From Alicyclobacillus tolerans (lineage in GTDB: Bacteria > Bacillota > Bacilli > Alicyclobacillales > Alicyclobacillaceae), in the NCBI RefSeq assembly GCF_001447355.1, contig NZ_JXBW01000007.1:62001-126000 (forward strand): DNA of 64,000 bases, written 5' to 3'. The notes beneath the pieces are model-generated. The model was given only the letters and a program-made list of their open reading frames with translations. It had not been told where the DNA came from and did not search any database. Shown here piece by piece: positions 42,128 through 50,669 of this stretch. Numbering within the stretch: position 1 is the stretch's first letter; every line of letters starts with the position of its first letter. A program made the position numbers and the translations under genes.

Positions 42128-43255
42128 GTGCACGATTGGTTGACCATCGTTCTCGTTGCATGCGTCATCATCTCAGCGCTCCTCGGCTTCGCACGCGGTT
42201 TTACTCGCGAACTGCGAACGACCATCGCGCAGGTCATGAACATCGCCGTCGCCTGCTTGTCGGGTTGGCTCGCCTGGCGCCTTAGCGCATACATCCGACA
42301 CTGGATGACACATCCGGAGGGCATGGTTCACTTGCCACAATGGCTCACACACCTCGCCACAGCTTGGCAACAGGCACCGCGCGTCGGCAACCTAATCTGT
42401 TTTGCCGTACTCTACCTCATTCTATCTAATTTGCTCATGACGATGGTGCGTCCCCTATGGGGCATCACCTTTTCCATATCCCAACGCAAACCGGACATCT
42501 TCGTACGCATGGGTGGCGGCGGCGTGGGCGCCATCGCGGGTTCGCTTCGTGCAGCAGCGCTAGGCGCATGCATTTTTCTTGCAAACCAATACTTGTCGCT
42601 ACCCGCTCTGGTGCGAGCAGCAAACGCTTCGACACCCTACACCATGCTTGAACGCGATGTCTACAAACCGTGGTTACAACCGTTTGCCACTCGCGAGTTG
42701 CCCGTGCTTGCGCAAGGCGCTCTGCATCCCATCGCCCAAAACATTTCGCTGTTTGCGATCCCGACTCCAGGCTCCTCCTCGGAGACTGGCATCCTGATTG
42801 TGCCAAAGCCAGTTGCCGAAAAAGCCTTGCAGATCACGAAAGGCGATTCGACGCCGGAACAAAAGGCCAAGGCATTGTACGAATGGGAAATTCACCACAT
42901 CTCATACAACTGGGCCAAATACGACGACTATGTGTATCACGGTAAATGGGATGCACAATCGCCGTTGCAGACTCTGAAAACCGGCAAAGGTGTATGTGCC
43001 GATTTTGCCCTGTTGTATGCGGATATGGCCCACGCCTGTGGACTTACTGTGCGCATCGACGAGGGCTTAGGTGGTACCGCGGGTGACGAAGGCAGCCATG
43101 CCTGGAATGAGGTTTACCTTCCAGCAGAGCATCGCTGGATCCTCATCGACACCACCTGGGGATCAGAGCAAGATGACTGGTTCAACGTACCGCCTGCACA
43201 GTTTGACCAAACCCATCAAACCGAGACGTCTATCACCTTTTATGCCTCACCTTGA
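42128..43255 (+). CDS. CvpA-like membrane domain fused to a transglutaminase-like domain
   Basis: 375 residues. The first 170 have four hydrophobic segments with a CvpA/colicin V production-type opening (LTIVLVACVIISALLGFARGFTRELR). From about residue 240 a transglutaminase-like domain follows with the Cys-His-Asp triad in GKGVCADFALLYADMAHACGL, GSHAWNEVYL and WILIDTTWGS. The domain between (about 170-235) probably faces outside. GTG start with AAAGGAAG upstream. The catalytic domain suggests cell-surface proteolysis or cross-linking. The pairing is uncommon. Overlaps the next gene's 3' end by 16 bp. Confidence 0.82.
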   Translation: MHDWLTIVLVACVIISALLGFARGFTRELRTTIAQVMNIAVACLSGWLAWRLSAYIRHWMTHPEGMVHLPQWLTHLATAWQQAPRVGNLICFAVLYLILSNLLMTMVRPLWGITFSISQRKPDIFVRMGGGGVGAIAGSLRAAALGACIFLANQYLSLPALVRAANASTPYTMLERDVYKPWLQPFATRELPVLAQGALHPIAQNISLFAIPTPGSSSETGILIVPKPVAEKALQITKGDSTPEQKAKALYEWEIHHISYNWAKYDDYVYHGKWDAQSPLQTLKTGKGVCADFALLYADMAHACGLTVRIDEGLGGTAGDEGSHAWNEVYLPAEHRWILIDTTWGSEQDDWFNVPPAQFDQTHQTETSITFYASP

Positions 43256-45189
43256 ATGGCCCTATCAATCAGCGGCAGGCACATCCGCATGCGCGTGCCG
43301 CCAGGGCCGCTGTCAACCACTTCTATCGTACCTCCGTGCGCAATGGCAACCAAACCACTAAAGGTTAAGCCAAGACCAAGGCCGTTTTTCTTCGTAGAAC
43401 TATAGGGCATGAAAATAGTATCCCAACGCTCCTTCGGAATGCCCACCCCGGTATCGACAAGATCCACTCGCAACTGTTCCCCTTCGCCCTTCGTTTCCAG
43501 CCGCACTTGCCGTACCGGCGCCGATTCCGGTATCGCATCCATCGCGTTTTTCAGCAAATTGACAATGGCTGCAAACACCTTATCTGCGTCAACCTCTAGC
43601 TCGACCTTTGCCATGGCTGTGCCGTCATCGAAAACCAACTGGATGTGTTTACTTTCCATCATCGGTCGACACAACCCGGCTGCCTCCCTTGTAATGGCAA
43701 AGACGTCCGCACGTTTGACAGACAGCCGACCATGCTTAAGGAAGTTTGTAAACTCACGAGAAACGCGGTTTGCATATGCAGAAGCCGAATGCATGCGGTC
43801 GAGAATTTCCACCGCCTTGCTATTCAAGCCTGGTTGCACACGCGGTAAGAGTTCCGACATCTGGCGGATTGCCGCCAATGGGGTACCCAACTCGTGCACC
43901 AACGCATGGGTGGCCATCACGAGATAATTCATGCCCTTGCCGCGCTCGCGCAGCGAAAGTTCACGCAGATAATCAACCAATTTGCGCGACATTTCATTGA
44001 CGTGATCGGCCAATACGCCGATTTCGTCCGAGCGGCGGACCTGAAGCTGCGCCTCGAAGTTGCGATCCGCAATCTCATCCACAGCCTTTGTAATCCGGCG
44101 CAGCGGCTTGGCAATCAGATCCGCCCCTAAGTAGCTGAGCAGCGCAGTCGCGACAAGCAATATCGCAGAAACGATGACCAGGTTGTGGATAAGAAGTGTC
44201 AAAGTGCTGCTGATGGCACGATAATCAGTGACCACTTTGACGACGTAGCGCGTACCACGGACGCTCTGTGGAATAAATGTCTTTAGCACTTTGCGCCCGG
44301 ATACATGATCGATCACGCTCACCGTCCGATTCGACGTGAGGGCTTCGTTTTTTGCTTTCACGTCAACGGCTGGGTTGCGATATTTGTACTCGCCGTACAT
44401 CACCGGCTCATTGGCAACGTCGACCCAAGAGGTGCCATGGTAAGAATAGCGAATCGGTGCTTGCCCGAACGTTCGATTCAATACGGCAATACTAAGAACG
44501 TCCGAATCGGCGGCCTGAATATGGCGAATTGCCGTATTCACGCCAACGTCCTGTTCGTAACCGGGAATCGACGTCGAGACATAGAACGGATCGATAATGT
44601 AGTCGGTACGCCCGTCGTAATAGTACCCCCACTTATCGACTTTTGAAGGGTCCGATGTGGCATTGGAGAACGGTCCTGACCAGTAATTCTGCTCCGCCAT
44701 GCCATAGGTGGATGCCTGTGGACGCCCGGCCAAAAGATCGCGAAAGGCGATGTACCATTTGCCCATGCCCTTTGTCGAGAGGCCAATTTCGCGGGGATCT
44801 GTGGACCGAACACCGACGATGTCGTCGGCGGTCGGCTGAAACAAGGTGATACCACTGACTCCCAACTGCGCCGCGATCCGCTTTAGCTGGCTGTTGGTGA
44901 CGTCTTCCACACGTGGCGGTAGCTGTTCCTCAATGGCGATGGAAGCGATGCGCAATTCATTGCCAAGCAAATTGTCGCTATACGCCTCGCCTGTCCGCGA
45001 GGCAGCAATCTCAAGGTCAATTTGTTGCGCGAGTAATTCCGTCTGTTTCACCGCGTTGTTCAACAACTGTGCTCGCGTCGTACTATAAAATAACGTGTCA
45101 CTGAGAAGCGCGATGAGCAACATGGCACCAAACAGGATGGCCATGATTTTATACCGCAAAGAAAAGCGGACACGAGTCCGACGTTCCAC
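43240..45189 (-). CDS. Orphan membrane sensor histidine kinase with large extracellular domain
   Basis: About 649 residues. TM1 lies near residues 13-35 and TM2 near 335-360, leaving an extracytoplasmic domain of about 300 residues, possibly a dCache-type sensor. HAMP follows (ADLIAKPLRRITKAVDEIADRNFEAQL), then HisKA (VHELGTPLAAIRQMSELL) and HATPase (N-box NLLKNAMDAI, G-box DTGVGIP, KNGLGLGLTF). GTG at 45189 follows GGAGGGAG about 11 bases upstream, and the start is not certain. No response regulator is nearby. Confidence 0.88.
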   Translation of the reverse strand: MERRTRVRFSLRYKIMAILFGAMLLIALLSDTLFYSTTRAQLLNNAVKQTELLAQQIDLEIAASRTGEAYSDNLLGNELRIASIAIEEQLPPRVEDVTNSQLKRIAAQLGVSGITLFQPTADDIVGVRSTDPREIGLSTKGMGKWYIAFRDLLAGRPQASTYGMAEQNYWSGPFSNATSDPSKVDKWGYYYDGRTDYIIDPFYVSTSIPGYEQDVGVNTAIRHIQAADSDVLSIAVLNRTFGQAPIRYSYHGTSWVDVANEPVMYGEYKYRNPAVDVKAKNEALTSNRTVSVIDHVSGRKVLKTFIPQSVRGTRYVVKVVTDYRAISSTLTLLIHNLVIVSAILLVATALLSYLGADLIAKPLRRITKAVDEIADRNFEAQLQVRRSDEIGVLADHVNEMSRKLVDYLRELSLRERGKGMNYLVMATHALVHELGTPLAAIRQMSELLPRVQPGLNSKAVEILDRMHSASAYANRVSREFTNFLKHGRLSVKRADVFAITREAAGLCRPMMESKHIQLVFDDGTAMAKVELEVDADKVFAAIVNLLKNAMDAIPESAPVRQVRLETKGEGEQLRVDLVDTGVGIPKERWDTIFMPYSSTKKNGLGLGLTFSGLVAIAHGGTIEVVDSGPGGTRMRMCLPLIDRAIQGEA

Positions 45190-45255
45190 GTGATCCCCAA
45201 CTCCCTCCGTACCTGCCCATAGCATAGCAGGCTCGATTGGGATCTGTGGACTCTA

Positions 45256-47001
45256 TTATTTACTGGGTGTAGAACCTACTGGAAGCCACTTCAAAATATC
45301 ATGAAGACTCAATGGCCGGCTAAATCGGTAACCTTGGAAGACGTCACAGCCGCGCTCGCGCAGCCAGGTATAGTGCAAATCCGTCTCGACGCCTTCGGCA
45401 ACCACGATGGCACCGAGGTGATGAGCGAGGTCAATGATGCTAGAAACAATGATTTCGCATTTGGGATCTATCCCGATGCCGCGCACAAACGACTGGTCAA
45501 TTTTTAGGATATCCGGGGCGAGATCGCGAAAATAGCGAAATGACGAATAGCCTGTACCAAAATCGTCAATGGCCAGCCGGTGTCCACTATCTTGGAGCGA
45601 CTGTAGCACGGATAGACGCCGCCCAGAGTCGGCGAAAACGCTTTCTGTCACCTCGAATACGATCCGCCGCGGCGGTATTCCATAGTTGCCCAGCACGGCT
45701 TGAACATTTCGTAAAAAGTCGGGATGATCCAATTGGCGTACAGAGCAGTTCACAGAAATAGGGATGTTCGCCATGGCGAGTACGTCGTTGTGCACCAAAT
45801 CGCGGCAGACGACACCCAAGACCCGTAAACCGAGTTTGTGGATGAGGCCGAGTTCTTCTGCAATAGGAATAAACGTGCCCGGCGAGCACGGAAATCTCGG
45901 TTCATGCCAGCGTGCCAAGGCTTCAGCGCCGACGATACGCCCGGTAGCGTCAACCTTGGGCTGATACGCCACGCCAATTTGCCCTTTATCGAGGGCTTCC
46001 ATCAGTCGAAAATACAGCGCATGCTTCTCCTCCATGCCGCGCTTCAAGCTCGGTGTATACCATGTGCTGTTCAGCGACGCTTCTCCCGCGCTATGCAGGG
46101 CAAGTAACGACTGATGTAAAAGTTCGACAAAAGCTACTTTCGTCCCATCCTCCGATTCATCAGGAACAGCGACGCCAAATCTGGCCTGCAGGCGAAAGTT
46201 AAACTCTCTGACGCGTATGGGCTGCTCGACTAGGAAAGTAAGAAAGTTAAGGACCGTTGGGTCAATCGTTCCCGTTCGCAGCGCCACGACAAATTCGTCT
46301 GCTGCCACACGTGCGACGTACGACTTAGGTAGTGCCCTTTGCACGCGCATTAAAAGATTGGTGAAGGCCTCGTTCATGACCTCGTCTCCGTAACTATCCC
46401 GAAGACCGATGAACTTGTTCAACCCAACCGCCACGACTGCGATCTGAGCACCCTTTTGGCTTTGCAACGACATAAGCTTAGCGTGCAACCAATGCTCGTT
46501 TGGAAAGCCTGTCCCACTGTCGAAGTATGAGCGATCCATCAACTTGCGCCATGCACCCATGCGTTCGCCATACGGCCTACAGGTGAACATCCAAAAGTGC
46601 TTGTCGCCGACAGTGAATGGGTTCGCTGCAACTTCAAACGACACCGCACTTCCATCCCTGTGCACGTACGGCATTTCGACAGGCAGAGACACCTCGCCCT
46701 GCTTGCAGATCTCGCTTACAATGTGGTGTCCATCTGGATGTACGATGCATAAGCCACTTTGCCCAAGAAGTTCAAGCGGCTCATAGCCCAATTCCCGGCA
46801 CAGCACATCATTCACGGCGGCAATCGACAGCAGGCGGCCAGATCCGTCTTCAATGCATACGTATACCGCCTCTGGCAGATACCGAATTATGCAGTGTGCA
46901 CTCAAAATTTCTCTAAACCCCTGATGCGTATAAAACGTACCATCTTGCCGAACCCGAAACGAATCCATGGTTCGCGCATCGCCGGTGCGCTGTTGCGTCA
47001 T
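45256..47001 (-). CDS. PAS, degenerate GGDEF and EAL domain protein
   Basis: 581 residues from ATG 47001 (TTGGGAGG upstream). A PAS domain (residues about 20-145) is followed by a GGDEF-like domain in which the signature is replaced (RVAADEFVVAL), so it should not make c-di-GMP. The EAL domain is intact: AEALARW, NCSVRQLD, FEVTES, AIDDFGTGYSS, LKIDQSFV, VAEGVET. It is therefore predicted to hydrolyse c-di-GMP, perhaps gated by GTP binding to the GGDEF-like domain. Co-directional with the kinase gene downstream; the HTH-guanylate kinase gene lies upstream. Confidence 0.9.
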   Translation of the reverse strand: MTQQRTGDARTMDSFRVRQDGTFYTHQGFREILSAHCIIRYLPEAVYVCIEDGSGRLLSIAAVNDVLCRELGYEPLELLGQSGLCIVHPDGHHIVSEICKQGEVSLPVEMPYVHRDGSAVSFEVAANPFTVGDKHFWMFTCRPYGERMGAWRKLMDRSYFDSGTGFPNEHWLHAKLMSLQSQKGAQIAVVAVGLNKFIGLRDSYGDEVMNEAFTNLLMRVQRALPKSYVARVAADEFVVALRTGTIDPTVLNFLTFLVEQPIRVREFNFRLQARFGVAVPDESEDGTKVAFVELLHQSLLALHSAGEASLNSTWYTPSLKRGMEEKHALYFRLMEALDKGQIGVAYQPKVDATGRIVGAEALARWHEPRFPCSPGTFIPIAEELGLIHKLGLRVLGVVCRDLVHNDVLAMANIPISVNCSVRQLDHPDFLRNVQAVLGNYGIPPRRIVFEVTESVFADSGRRLSVLQSLQDSGHRLAIDDFGTGYSSFRYFRDLAPDILKIDQSFVRGIGIDPKCEIIVSSIIDLAHHLGAIVVAEGVETDLHYTWLRERGCDVFQGYRFSRPLSLHDILKWLPVGSTPSK

Positions 47002-47108
47002 AACGTTCCTCCCAAGGAGATCCGTCATCAGTTCCACTCGTCAACCCTTTCGACACAGTTCGAGCAACTTCCTCTCTCGACACTCTGCGATCGCGGGAAA
47101 AAGAACGT

Positions 47109-47897
47109 TTATGCGCGCTTGCGCGTGCATGTGCGAATAATTTGGGCCAGCTCGGCTGTGGCTGTCGGAATGTCATCATTGAAAATCAAATAGTCGAACT
47201 GGTCACTGAGTGATTCCTCGTACTTTAAGCGTTCCATCCGGATTCGAATATCGGCTTCCGCGTCGCCACGCCCGTATAACCGACCCTCGAGATCGTTCAA
47301 CGAAGTCGGGCGAACATAAATTAACACGACGCGATCGCCAAACGCCTTCTTCATATTCAGGGCCCCGTTGACGTCGATGTCTTTAATGACGATATGGCCT
47401 GCGTCGAGTGCCTGTTCGTAAGTTAAGAGATGCGTACCATAGTAATTGCCGTGAATCGATTCGTACTCTAGAAACTCACCGCGCTCCGCCATGGCCATAA
47501 ACTCTTCCGTTGAGACAAAATAGTACGGATTCCCGTTGCGCTCACCTGGCCGCATGGGCCTCGTTGCAAACGATGGAATGAATGTTAGGCCGAGATCGTA
47601 GCGATCCCGCAGCGAATTGATAAGCGTGTTTTTACCGGCCCCAGACGGCCCTGATAGGATAAACAACAGTCCTTTCGTCTCGTGCTCCCCCTTGGGCTCA
47701 TAGCTCATCAAGTCGGACAGTGCACATTGCAAAGCGTCACAAATACTTTGCAAGACTTTGAGATCGACCCGGGAAATCTCATTTTTCTTGATGGCATAGA
47801 GCGTGTTTTTGTTGACGCCGGAACGCTTCATCAGATCGGGAATCTTCCAATTGCGTTCAAACAAGAGCCGATCGAGATGAAATTGCACTTTGTGCAC
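47109..47897 (-). CDS. XRE-type helix-turn-helix fused to guanylate kinase
   Basis: About 262 residues. Residues 1-65 form a Cro/C1-like HTH (FERNWKIPDLMKRSGVNKNTLYAIKKNE), as in YozG-type regulators. A short linker (YEPKGEHETKG) leads to a complete guanylate kinase: P-loop GPSGAGKNT, TRPMRPGERNG (GMP-binding Arg residues), YEFLEYESIHGNYYG, IDVNGALNMK and the lid RGDAEADIRIRMERL. GMP kinases make GDP from GMP and ATP. The fusion suggests DNA binding coupled to the GMP/GTP pool. I prefer the GTG at 47897 over the ATG at 47927 for its upstream GGGG. Whether this is the only Gmk of the cell is unknown. Confidence 0.85.
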   Translation of the reverse strand: MHKVQFHLDRLLFERNWKIPDLMKRSGVNKNTLYAIKKNEISRVDLKVLQSICDALQCALSDLMSYEPKGEHETKGLLFILSGPSGAGKNTLINSLRDRYDLGLTFIPSFATRPMRPGERNGNPYYFVSTEEFMAMAERGEFLEYESIHGNYYGTHLLTYEQALDAGHIVIKDIDVNGALNMKKAFGDRVVLIYVRPTSLNDLEGRLYGRGDAEADIRIRMERLKYEESLSDQFDYLIFNDDIPTATAELAQIIRTCTRKRA

Positions 47898-48062
47898 ACG
47901 AACACATCCCCGTTTTAAAGTTTCCATTCAGTATACACACTTCCGGCGAACAAGTACATGCATCATTGGAATTCTATCGTCATTGTGATTTTGGATAAGT
48001 CGCGCTAGACTACGCATATCAGGATTCGCATGAACATTTCGTCATAGAAAGGTCGACTCGCT

Positions 48063-49350
48063 ATGTCACAAAAGCCATTCTCACCTACACCCCATCCGAA
48101 ACCGCTTTCTACCACCGACCTGGTGATTTTTGGCGCGGTCTTAATGGTTCCTATTGCGCCGATGTCGATGTACGTGTACATCGCGGAACAAAGCGGCGGA
48201 CATAGCTGGCTTGTCATGCTCTTAGGCTGGTTCGGAGCTTGTCTCACGGCATACGCCTATCGACGCCTCGCAGGGGTATTTCCCGGCGGCTCCATATACA
48301 GCTACGTCGGTCGTGCACTACAAAGCGATACCGGATGGATTGCCGCCTGGATCATATTAGCTGACTACTTGTTCGTACCCCGCCACGCTGTATGCCAATT
48401 GTTCGAGTCTTATTGGCGAGTACTTGCCCCAAATCCCCAGCTGGAGCTGGTACGCGGTACTCAGCCTGATCAATCTGGCCTTTGGCTTGTTGCCCATCCG
48501 GCGGCAGATCCGGCTGTATGCGCTGGTGCTCATCAGTGAACTCATCGCCCTAATTGCCTTTATCGTCGTTGCCCTGCACGCTTTGCCACACGCCGGTGTG
48601 CCTGCCAGCTCGCCTGTGCATGTTGGTCCAGCACGAATGCTGTCACTCGTATCGGTAGGCGTGATTGGCTTTCTTGGCTTTGACGGTATTAGCACACTCG
48701 ACGGTGAGGCTGCCCGTCCTACACAATCTGTAGGACGGGCGACGATTTGGGTCGCAGCAGTCATGGGCTTTCTATTCCTACTGCAATGTGCGCTTGCAGG
48801 CGCCATTCATCCCAACTATGCCACACTGGATCCGGCAACCGGCTTTTTCGATCTCGCTCGTTCCATCGGCGGTCCATTCATCGGTTGGCTGTTGATCACC
48901 GTGTTTCTCATCGGATCCGGCATCGCCAACGCAAGCGCAGGCCAAGTGTCAGCCTCTCGGGTGCTGGCCGTACTCCGCGAACAAACCCTGCCCACGTTGT
49001 CAGCAAAGTCCCGACATTTAGACAGAGTTACGATGATCCTCATATCGCTTCTCTCTTTCGTTTTAGCCACTTTTGTGCCCTTACAAACGCTCAACGCGTT
49101 CGTTTCGTTCGGAGCATTTGCGGCTTTCATCATGATTCACGTATCTTTGTTTTATCGATTTTACATACGGGGAACGAAAGGGCCGAAGCGCATTGTCGAT
49201 GGATGGGTGGCAATCTTAGGTTTGCTGGTGATGATCGTGGCACTGATCTTCGAAGAGTCCCCATCGCTTGTGCTCAAACTTGGCGCTCTTTGGCTGCTCA
49301 TGGGTGTGGCCATTTGGGCCATACGGACATGGCGCGAGGCTGAAGTTTGA
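48063..49350 (+). pseudogene. APC-family amino acid permease, frameshifted
   Basis: The N-terminal 105 residues (LVIFGAVLMVPIAPMSMYVYIAEQSGG) and the downstream part (PSWSWYAVLSLINLAFGLLP ... ARPTQSVGRATIW ... GQVSASRVLAVLREQ) are halves of one APC permease in different frames. The shift is at a run of four C (48378-48381). Without one C the sequence joins as DYLFVPATLYAN and the protein would be 428 residues. It lacks an obvious SD. It could be a true pseudogene or a sequencing error. Substrate unknown. Confidence 0.85.
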
Positions 49351-49478
49351 GGTGACGTGCAAATAGAGCCACCCTTCGGCGTCTTGGCGCCCGTGCACGC
49401 CTGATCAGTGAATACAAACTCGATTTCAATTTGTTAAACTCCATAGAATGCACAGAATTGACTAGGCAGGTGAACGAC

Positions 49479-50669
49479 ATGCCATGGTTTGCAGACATGG
49501 TGTCGGCCATTACATGCTTGGCTTGGCTGTTCCTGTTATGCTGCAGAGGGTTCTATTGGCTAATGGGTGACGGGCTAACAGACAAGCGCATGGAAGAGCA
49601 CAACGGTGTCTCTAGTTGGCCAAAGGTTTGTGCAATCGTACCAGCCCGCAACGAAGCGGATGTTTTAGGCGAGACCCTGCCGTCACTTTTGAACCAGAAT
49701 TATGCTGGCGAGTTCCATGTCATTTTAGTGGATGATCACAGTGATGACGGAACCAGCGAAGTGGCACGCAACATTGCACAAACAATGCATCGGGAAGATC
49801 GATTGCAGATTCTGAAGTCAGCTCCTCTACCAAACGGATGGGCCGGGAAGGTTTGGGCTATGCAGAATGGACTGCGCGAAGTCCCTCCCGATGCTGAATA
49901 TGTATTATTGACCGATGCTGACATCCGCCATCCTGAGTCATCTGTGTCCCGCCTTGTTGAACAGGCCAAGCGGCAAAGACGAGATTTCGTCTCGCTGATG
50001 GTACGACTGCATGTAGAGTCAAAGTGGGAGGCCCTTTTGATTCCAGCATTCGTCTACTTTTTTGCAAAACTGTACCCATTTCGTTGGGTTGCTAACGACA
50101 AACGCAAGACGGCTGCGGCAGCAGGTGGCTGTATCCTTGTCAGGCGAGAACTGATCCAAACTGCAGACGGGTTAACCCCCATCGCTGGCGCCGTGATCGA
50201 CGACTGCTCATTGGCAAAACTCGTTCAGTCACGCGGTGCCACGCTGTGGTTGGGCCTGGGCAGCGACTTTGCCAGCATGCGCCGCTATACGTCTTTAGCA
50301 GAGATTTGGAATATGGTCGCTCGCTCAGCGTTCGTACAGCTCAACTACTCCCTTTGGCTCTTGGTCGGCACCACCATCGGCATGACACTACTGTACCTTG
50401 TCCCCGTGGTCACAACTATTGCAGGCATTTGCCTCACTTCTCTGGGACAAGCCGATTGGATCTGGCCAGGCCTGCTTGGTCTTGTTGCGTGGTGCATCAT
50501 GTCCGCTACCTTCGTGCCAATTCTTCGCTGGCACAGGCTGGCGCTGTGGCGAGTCATAACATTACCGGCCGCAGGCTTTTTGTATACGCTGATGACAATT
50601 GACTCTGCGATCCGGTTCTGGCAACGGCGGGCTGGCGCCTGGAAAGGACGCCCGTATGAAATGCATTAG
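49479..50669 (+). CDS. hpnB: Hopene-associated glycosyltransferase HpnB
   Basis: 396 residues of GT family 2. N-terminal TM, then AIVPARNEADVLGETLPSLL, DDHSDDGT, DADIRHP (DxD site), RTAAAAGGCILVRRE-type acceptor loop (here KTAAAAGG), IDDCSLAKLV, and C-terminal TM segments. These match HpnB of hopanoid clusters. It probably works on hopanoid or related lipid precursors; its reaction is not settled. ATG at 49479 with GCAGGTGA upstream. No other hopanoid gene is in the window. The last bases overlap the next gene's stop. Confidence 0.85.
   Translation: MPWFADMVSAITCLAWLFLLCCRGFYWLMGDGLTDKRMEEHNGVSSWPKVCAIVPARNEADVLGETLPSLLNQNYAGEFHVILVDDHSDDGTSEVARNIAQTMHREDRLQILKSAPLPNGWAGKVWAMQNGLREVPPDAEYVLLTDADIRHPESSVSRLVEQAKRQRRDFVSLMVRLHVESKWEALLIPAFVYFFAKLYPFRWVANDKRKTAAAAGGCILVRRELIQTADGLTPIAGAVIDDCSLAKLVQSRGATLWLGLGSDFASMRRYTSLAEIWNMVARSAFVQLNYSLWLLVGTTIGMTLLYLVPVVTTIAGICLTSLGQADWIWPGLLGLVAWCIMSATFVPILRWHRLALWRVITLPAAGFLYTLMTIDSAIRFWQRRAGAWKGRPYEMH

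Follow-up and report, generated by a model that had tools for sequence, protein, structure and literature searches.

Within the 64,000-nucleotide stretch of Alicyclobacillus tolerans DNA analysed here (the window), an open reading frame on the minus strand, with a GTG start at 47897 and a TAA stop codon ending at 47109, encodes a protein of 262 amino acids in which a helix-turn-helix (HTH) domain precedes a guanylate kinase (Gmk) domain. The features of the gene and of its promoter region are the following:

47109–47897, minus strand: coding sequence of the HTH-guanylate kinase fusion (262 amino acids, GTG start, TAA stop), supported by Pfam, NCBIfam and orthologues
47691–47879, minus strand: Cro/C1-type HTH (PF13443, HTH_26; 65.6 bits, cut-off 22), helical in the AlphaFold model
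47667–47690, minus strand: short linker between the Pfam domains, of low model confidence
47133–47666, minus strand: guanylate kinase domain (PF00625, Guanylate_kin, 126.4 bits, cut-off 25.2; TIGR03263, guanyl_kin, 172.7 bits, curated NCBIfam cut-off 160.45)
47628–47651, minus strand: P-loop GPSGAGKN, within the kinase domain
47955–47970, minus strand: candidate operator TCCAATGATGCATGTA, the only exact match of the pattern in the genome, its end overlapping the -35-like hexamer
47953–47958, minus strand: -35-like hexamer TGTACT, picked by eye, 17 bp from TATACT
47930–47935, minus strand: -10-like hexamer TATACT, a similar hexamer lying upstream of other fusions

A preliminary description of this DNA had noted GMP kinase motifs that look intact, preceded by a Cro/C1-like HTH; Pfam, TIGR03263 and the alignments agree with it, both domains being intact. 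HTH_26 and Guanylate_kin were the only Pfam domains above cut-off in the protein, with neither a NadR-type nor a shikimate kinase-like domain among them. An AlphaFold model built from a seven-sequence alignment (mean pLDDT 84.2, pTM 0.64) gave a confident HTH, with 10-residue blocks at pLDDT 82–94 across residues 1–60, a confident kinase domain and a weak linker (pLDDT < 50 at residues 69–72), so that the relative placement of the two domains in the model is unreliable. In the fusions of genus g7 the linker is longer and resembles the N-terminal stretch of the HTH-less relatives. As regards the beginning of the gene, the GTG is preceded by a weak Shine-Dalgarno sequence (GGGG, 10 nt before it), and an alternative in-frame ATG at 47927 would lengthen the reading frame. 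The GTG, the start given in the preliminary description, is the better one, since that ATG directly follows the TATACT hexamer (47935–47930) and since stop codons in two other fusion loci (L034 and L036) put the start near the GTG-equivalent position, the open frame beginning just before it.

The genes around the fusion are shared within parts of the lineage. In the window, the genes behind the fusion encode a PAS-GGDEF-EAL protein (45256–47037) and a HAMP histidine kinase (43240–45225), both on the minus strand like the fusion itself. Upstream, the divergent gene for an amino-acid permease (48063–49350, plus strand) is split into two frames and looks like a broken gene in the strain of the window, a close relative (L039) having a single frame of 428 residues; beyond it lies a gene for the hopene-associated glycosyltransferase HpnB (49431–50669, plus strand; TIGR03469, 505 bits). 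According to BLAST, the histidine kinase follows the fusion in the hesperidum- and acidocaldarius-type clades, and relatives of the EAL protein (51%) and of the divergent permease (45%) adjoin the fusion gene in L040, while the fastidiosus-type and g7 loci have neither the histidine kinase nor the EAL and permease relatives in that arrangement. A lineage-wide conserved operon was therefore discarded, the neighbours being common only within parts of genus g1. The breakdown of c-di-GMP eventually yields GMP, and the link between c-di-GMP and GMP suggested by the EAL neighbour may be a coincidence.

The fusion is conserved, a point that had been proposed as a check. Among 59 genomes of the order searched with a profile of the fusion, 17 hold the same fusion (14 in g1, the genus of the window, and 3 in g7), 17 an HTH-less divergent Gmk (1 in genus g9 and 16 in family f2) and 22 a canonical Gmk, a count that includes three genomes (G061–G063) assigned by profile score only. 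A main Gmk was lacking in three genomes (G019, 91% complete; G052, 73%; G054, 60%), so that a single main Gmk is present in 56 of the 59, and no genome combines two of the three kinds. In the first relatives search, over 61 genomes, the main Gmk matches formed two classes, canonical at 231–244 bits and divergent at 167–185 bits. That the fusion is real and not a chance arrangement can be taken as confirmed at the sequence level, since it recurs in 17 of the 59 genomes and its HTH is about as conserved as its kinase, with synonymous sites near saturation. A scan of 84,980 species genomes detected the full-length fusion in named Alicyclobacillus (hesperidum, at 100% identity, sacchari, acidiphilus, sendaiensis, fructus, suci, fastidiosus, mali and sp. 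ALC3) and in one Bacillota MAG; as the scan relies on exact conserved peptides, fusions that arose independently on other Gmks would escape it. The genome of the window is close to A. hesperidum. A further 18 loci (an Alicyclobacillaceae MAG, Clostridia, Chloroflexota, Spirochaetota, Fibrobacterota and others) matched only over the kinase or just before it. Divergent Gmk relatives were also seen in long frames of 290–348 residues in Spirochaetota, Chloroflexota and Bacillota MAGs (L082, L092, L093, L095, L096 and L097), where about 100–145 residues lie beyond the kinase match and may hold further fused domains. No relative of the fusion was encoded among 201 pattern-matching stretches of viral contigs, and none of the 81 matching phage records covered 80% of the query. 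Plasmid records gave 249 matches, 3 of the 8 matches listed covering at least 80%; none of the three appeared to be a fusion: the aligned stretch of H9 holds a stop, H15 is annotated as a plain gmk and H16, judged by its name, is a gmk.

The own genome of the window (2.81 Mb, 55 contigs, 99.79% complete) gave one PF00625 and one TIGR03263 match in profile searches, both of them the fusion gene. The idea of an extra sensor standing beside a normal gmk has therefore to be given up, the fusion being the only guanylate kinase found in the genome. Second matches in five fusion genomes (G002, G008, G009, G010 and G013), at 19.9–23.9 bits against the cut-off of 160.45, correspond to a short P-loop stretch within frames of 458–508 amino acids and were not counted as Gmks. 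Beside the canonical Gmk, a second, weak Gmk-like protein with the P-loop GPSGSGKT was observed in two genomes (L068 in G027, 73 bits; L069 in G016, 67 bits). In G001, a genome of the same genus with a canonical Gmk, the gene order is yicC-gmk-rpoZ-coaBC-priA, while the genome of the window has yicC-rpoZ-coaBC-priA. No Gmk motif lay between yicC and rpoZ in any of the 8 fusion genomes inspected out of 17, the region being in a single contig in G004, G009 and G020. In all three canonical genomes inspected the Gmk lies upstream of coaBC (the yicC motif was missed in one and that of rpoZ in two); no Gmk was found at the coaBC region of the g9 genome, where the yicC motif was missed, or at coaBC in three f2 genomes, where coaBC was found and the yicC and rpoZ motifs were missed. 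In f2 (L052–L067), a sister family, the canonical gmk is replaced by another divergent Gmk of the GKN type, which has no HTH but carries a short conserved extension at its N-terminus. In most Alicyclobacillus examined, then, the only Gmk found is the HTH fusion, which is probably essential. Since it is the only Gmk found in its genome and the canonical gene is gone, the fusion must be an enzyme first, a predicted GMP kinase (GMP + ATP -> GDP + ADP).

The kinase domain is in keeping with such a function. Alignment with the E. coli and canonical Gmks showed that the P-loop, TR..R.GE..G..Y, LE, YGT, D.D, the lid Arg and an ND near the end are kept; over seven fusions the P-loop, the GMP-binding Ser/Arg/Arg/Tyr/Glu/Tyr and the lid Arg are invariant, the residues of the GMP site, the lid and the aspartates presumably having these roles in the fusion. 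The P-loop reads GKN in the fusion, GKG in the four canonical Gmks aligned and GKS in E. coli, and overall identity to three canonical Alicyclobacillaceae Gmks is 34–36%. A Foldseek search with the fusion model gave guanylate kinases as the best 50 PDB matches, with E. coli 2anb in the first place. The C-terminus is shorter, without the C-terminal tail of the canonical Gmk. Gmk is a (p)ppGpp target in B. subtilis, and, in the experiments described for that enzyme, truncation by ten residues at the C-terminus made pppGpp binding weaker (PMC6783271); another Gmk entry, PDB 4qrh, is titled for (p)ppGpp regulation. As the tail tied to (p)ppGpp control in B. subtilis is absent here, (p)ppGpp sensitivity of the fusion is not to be assumed.

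The HTH is above the PF13443 cut-off and helical in the model. When a profile of the fusions was compared with PDB sequences, one HTH chain was matched (3tyr, E 3.9e-5). An HTH devoid of conserved recognition residues, which had been pointed out as fatal to the regulator reading, is not what the alignment of seven fusions contains, the recognition-helix region N.NTLYA.K.N being largely invariant. Identity over the HTH, compared with that over the kinase, is 86% vs 77% between the window and L034, 78% vs 85% with L043, and 62% vs 63% with L047. For the HTH, pS is 0.98 and pN 0.126 between the window and L034, and over 21 pairs the values are 0.66–0.99 and 0.02–0.27. These comparisons indicate that the HTH is under selection and, between clades, about as conserved as the kinase. 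A separate translation start between the domains had also been raised as an objection to the fusion. Where the HTH ends, a possible start codon is present in all 17 fusions, ATG in the 14 of g1 and GTG in the 3 of g7, the latter in the same column as the g1 ATG in L036 and L047 and in the next codon in L080. None of the 17 has a Shine-Dalgarno-like 4-mer (AGGA, GGAG, GAGG, AAGG, GGGG, AGGG or GGGA) in the 16 nt before this codon. The codon falls within the PF13443 match, and residue conservation inside HTH_26 can by itself explain its presence; an additional kinase-only product initiated there is possible. In the window, an AAAGGA ends 3 nt ahead of TTG 78, a spacing too short for normal initiation.

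The own promoter had been suggested as a target of the protein, and a conserved candidate element was indeed found there: 16 bp, TCCAAYGAWSNNTGTA or a one-base variant of it (L037, L038 and L041), at the promoter of all 17 fusions, which include many close relatives and amount to about five clades. A motif obtained de novo from four distant fusion upstream regions had 15.95 bits, compared with a mean of 11.93 (sd 0.31, maximum 12.80) in 100 dinucleotide shuffles. With leave-one-clade-out weight matrices the element scored 16.1–20.1 bits in 17 of 17 fusions, while the best score was at most 8.6 bits in 17 HTH-less divergent loci (two of them with < 90 nt upstream) and at most 8.3 bits in 15 canonical gmk loci, of 25 fetched. 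The best scores in 400 random 230-nt stretches of the window had a median of 4.8, a 95th percentile of 10.5 and a 99th of 14.4 bits, and in a scan of the full window the gmk site reached 22.2 bits, the next site (33709, inside open reading frames) having 14.4. The element stays with the fusion gene across differing neighbourhoods and, as judged from these scores, tracks with the presence of the HTH. In the hesperidum-, acidiphilus- and acidocaldarius-type clades it ends on a -35-like hexamer (TGTAC-), and the g7 and fastidiosus-type elements occupy the spacer from -35 to -10 and run into TATAAT or TATACT. A generic promoter scan gave no promoter at threshold, the promoter being weak by consensus. 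The dyad symmetry of the element is weak, with 3–5 of 8 pairs, while Cro/C1 dimers usually have clearer palindromes.

Since the gmk sites themselves served to define the pattern, finding it there adds no independent support; such support comes from its rarity elsewhere and from the leave-one-clade-out scores. The strict exact pattern occurs once per genome, at the fusion gene, in 6 fusion genomes. A relaxed pattern, TMCAAYGAWVNNTGTA, matched 20 sites in 16 fusion genomes, of which 16 lie at the fusion gene and the other 4 away from it, with 2 for its reversed control, and 10 in 12 other genomes, where the reversed control also gave 2. The four extra sites, one each in G002, G004, G007 and G011, are all inside open reading frames of at least 100 amino acids; those of G002 and G011 also fit the strict pattern, and in G011 the extra site is the sole strict match, the gmk site being a one-base variant. 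Allowing one mismatch, 40 sites away from gmk were found in about 22.8 Mb (6 fusion genomes), compared with 45 one-mismatch and 3 exact matches in about 23.2 Mb (6 non-fusion genomes), the reversed pattern giving 15 vs 46 in the former and 24 vs 48 in the latter. The excess over the control is read as sequence bias, because non-fusion genomes show it too. Inside open reading frames of at least 100 amino acids lay 27 of the 40 sites, and their neighbours formed two weak cross-genome pairs (27% over 136 and 33% over 49 residues). A wider regulon was therefore rejected, the one-mismatch sites being no commoner than in non-fusion genomes and having no convincing orthologous neighbour; sites other than that at gmk look like background.

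The history of the fusion was approached through the kinase tree, in which the HTH-less Gmk of G022 (genus g9, locus L049) falls beside the g7 fusions (95/92, starred); support is modest (93/77, not starred) for the clade that unites G022 with all fusions. The Gmks of f2 form a separate clade, several of them with TTGACA-like promoters by eye. In G022 the linker and the promoter core GTGTATAATGG are kept, while the TCCAAYGA half of the element is gone (TCTGATACAGTGTGTA, 8.2 bits) and the -10 stays. The simplest reading would be one fusion event, since the g1 and g7 HTHs are alike (59–67% identity), followed by joint loss of HTH and element in g9, a co-loss that rests on one MAG, G022, 85% complete; two separate fusions would also be compatible with the tree.

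Taken together, these data point with reasonable probability to a sole Gmk whose HTH binds the 16-bp element at its own promoter, that is, to a single-target autoregulatory trigger enzyme, most likely a repressor. In the proposed mechanism, the N-terminal Cro/C1 HTH would bind the element at its own promoter, so that the enzyme would set its own level; the fusion would repress its own transcription from an element covering the -35/-10 region, and this repression would ease at low protein levels or with guanine nucleotides bound in the active site. Repression is preferred because of that coverage, the position of the element suiting repression in all clades and activation in some, and the sign of regulation, the enzymatic activity and the DNA binding are predictions. 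Ligand control is a further and more tentative step: the active site might itself be the sensor, with GMP, GDP/ATP or (p)ppGpp moving the lid and thereby switching the HTH on or off its single operator, a proposal that we hold possible and would not yet favour.

Activation instead of repression, with the fusion again as the sole Gmk and its HTH activating its own promoter from a site overlapping -35, has a precedent in lambda CI at PRM and is compatible with the three clades in which the element ends on the -35-like hexamer, as well as with the poor consensus of the promoter at the fusion gene. Nevertheless, the position between -35 and -10, and into the -10, in g7 and the fastidiosus-type clade suits repression, and one would less expect positive feedback for an essential enzyme, so that activation is considered unlikely. 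Somewhat less likely still is an HTH that has given up DNA binding and is kept only for dimerisation or stability, perhaps alongside a kinase-only product initiated at the internal start codon; the element would then be core promoter or the site of another regulator. The weak palindrome, the partial overlap with the core promoter and the positionally conserved start codon at the HTH end could be so understood, and the N-terminal HTH domain of the regulator BzdR is itself described as a dimer (PMC3602430). Against this, the recognition-helix region is largely invariant over seven fusions, the internal start lacks a Shine-Dalgarno sequence in 17 of 17, and the TCCAAYGA half is not core promoter, scores low at HTH-less and canonical loci and has decayed in the HTH-less L049 while the -10 stays.

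The reverse possibility, a protein that is only a transcription factor and whose kinase fold, like that of BzdR or MAGUK proteins, is catalytically dead and acts as a sensor, is very improbable. The shikimate kinase-like domain of BzdR is reported to have lost its activity (PMC3602430), and the P-loop of the fusion has Asn (GKN) where many P-loops have Ser or Thr. Nevertheless, Ser/Thr cannot be required at this position, as four canonical Gmks have Gly there; the GKN P-loop is also found in HTH-less relatives that are themselves sole Gmks, TIGR03263 scores over its cut-off, and the fusion is the only Gmk found in its genome and never occurs with a canonical gmk in the order. For the autoregulatory enzyme preferred here, the preliminary reading of a new regulator thus survives in part: the DNA-binding head is conserved, but the evidence points to a single-target autoregulator and not to a general nucleotide-sensing transcription factor.

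Comparison with known systems helps to place the protein. It shares with Gmk (EC 2.7.4.8; E. coli 2anb, 4qrh) the whole catalytic domain, with P-loop, GMP site and lid, and the occurrence of one per genome, and differs from it in the extra N-terminal HTH, the divergent lineage, the GKN P-loop, the shorter C-terminus and the genomic place. NadR of Enterobacterales is described as an HTH joined to an NMN adenylyltransferase and a ribosylnicotinamide kinase that represses several NAD genes, with orthologues without HTH elsewhere (PMC12421817). As far as that description goes, both are metabolic enzymes with a kinase domain and an N-terminal HTH, and both have HTH-less orthologues, while enzyme, pathway and domains differ and only its own gene is a candidate target of the fusion. 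BzdR, according to its authors, consists of an XRE HTH and an inactive shikimate kinase-like domain that binds benzoyl-CoA; they also built an active HTH-kinase chimera (Q1) and considered the loss of activity a possibly critical step for the regulator to work (PMC3602430). An XRE-type HTH, a linker and a small-molecule P-loop kinase fold are common to BzdR, so described, and the fusion, whose C-terminal domain is in contrast a Guanylate_kin with intact catalytic residues and an enzyme that is needed. PutA and PepA have been reported as single-target trigger enzymes, and the five E. coli trigger enzymes listed in the same source include the NMP kinase PyrH and no Gmk (PMC8249747). With BirA, PutA and other trigger enzymes, as these are described, the fusion would share an enzyme that also acts on transcription, which in its case is predicted, the predicted enzyme and the HTH domain being both present and conserved in one protein. 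It would thus work like the trigger enzymes BirA, NadR and PutA, but is a member of neither NadR nor BzdR. Among the papers listed by searches of the open-licence PMC literature, none dealt with an HTH-Gmk fusion.

Gmk is the gateway from GMP to GDP and GTP, and a whole lineage has replaced the canonical gmk by an HTH-fused one, which seems to be linked to one site only, in its own promoter. Natural controls exist in relatives where the HTH has apparently been lost, in those with a divergent HTH-less Gmk and in those that keep a canonical gmk. If true, this would be a compact case of an essential enzyme acting as the regulator of its own gene, and would show in nature the active kinase-HTH intermediate from which BzdR is proposed to have arisen. 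Moreover, if sensing by the active site were also true, the flux of guanine nucleotides would directly set gmk transcription, and the fusion would represent a natural, still active intermediate on the way from enzyme to regulator, such as has been built synthetically for BzdR.
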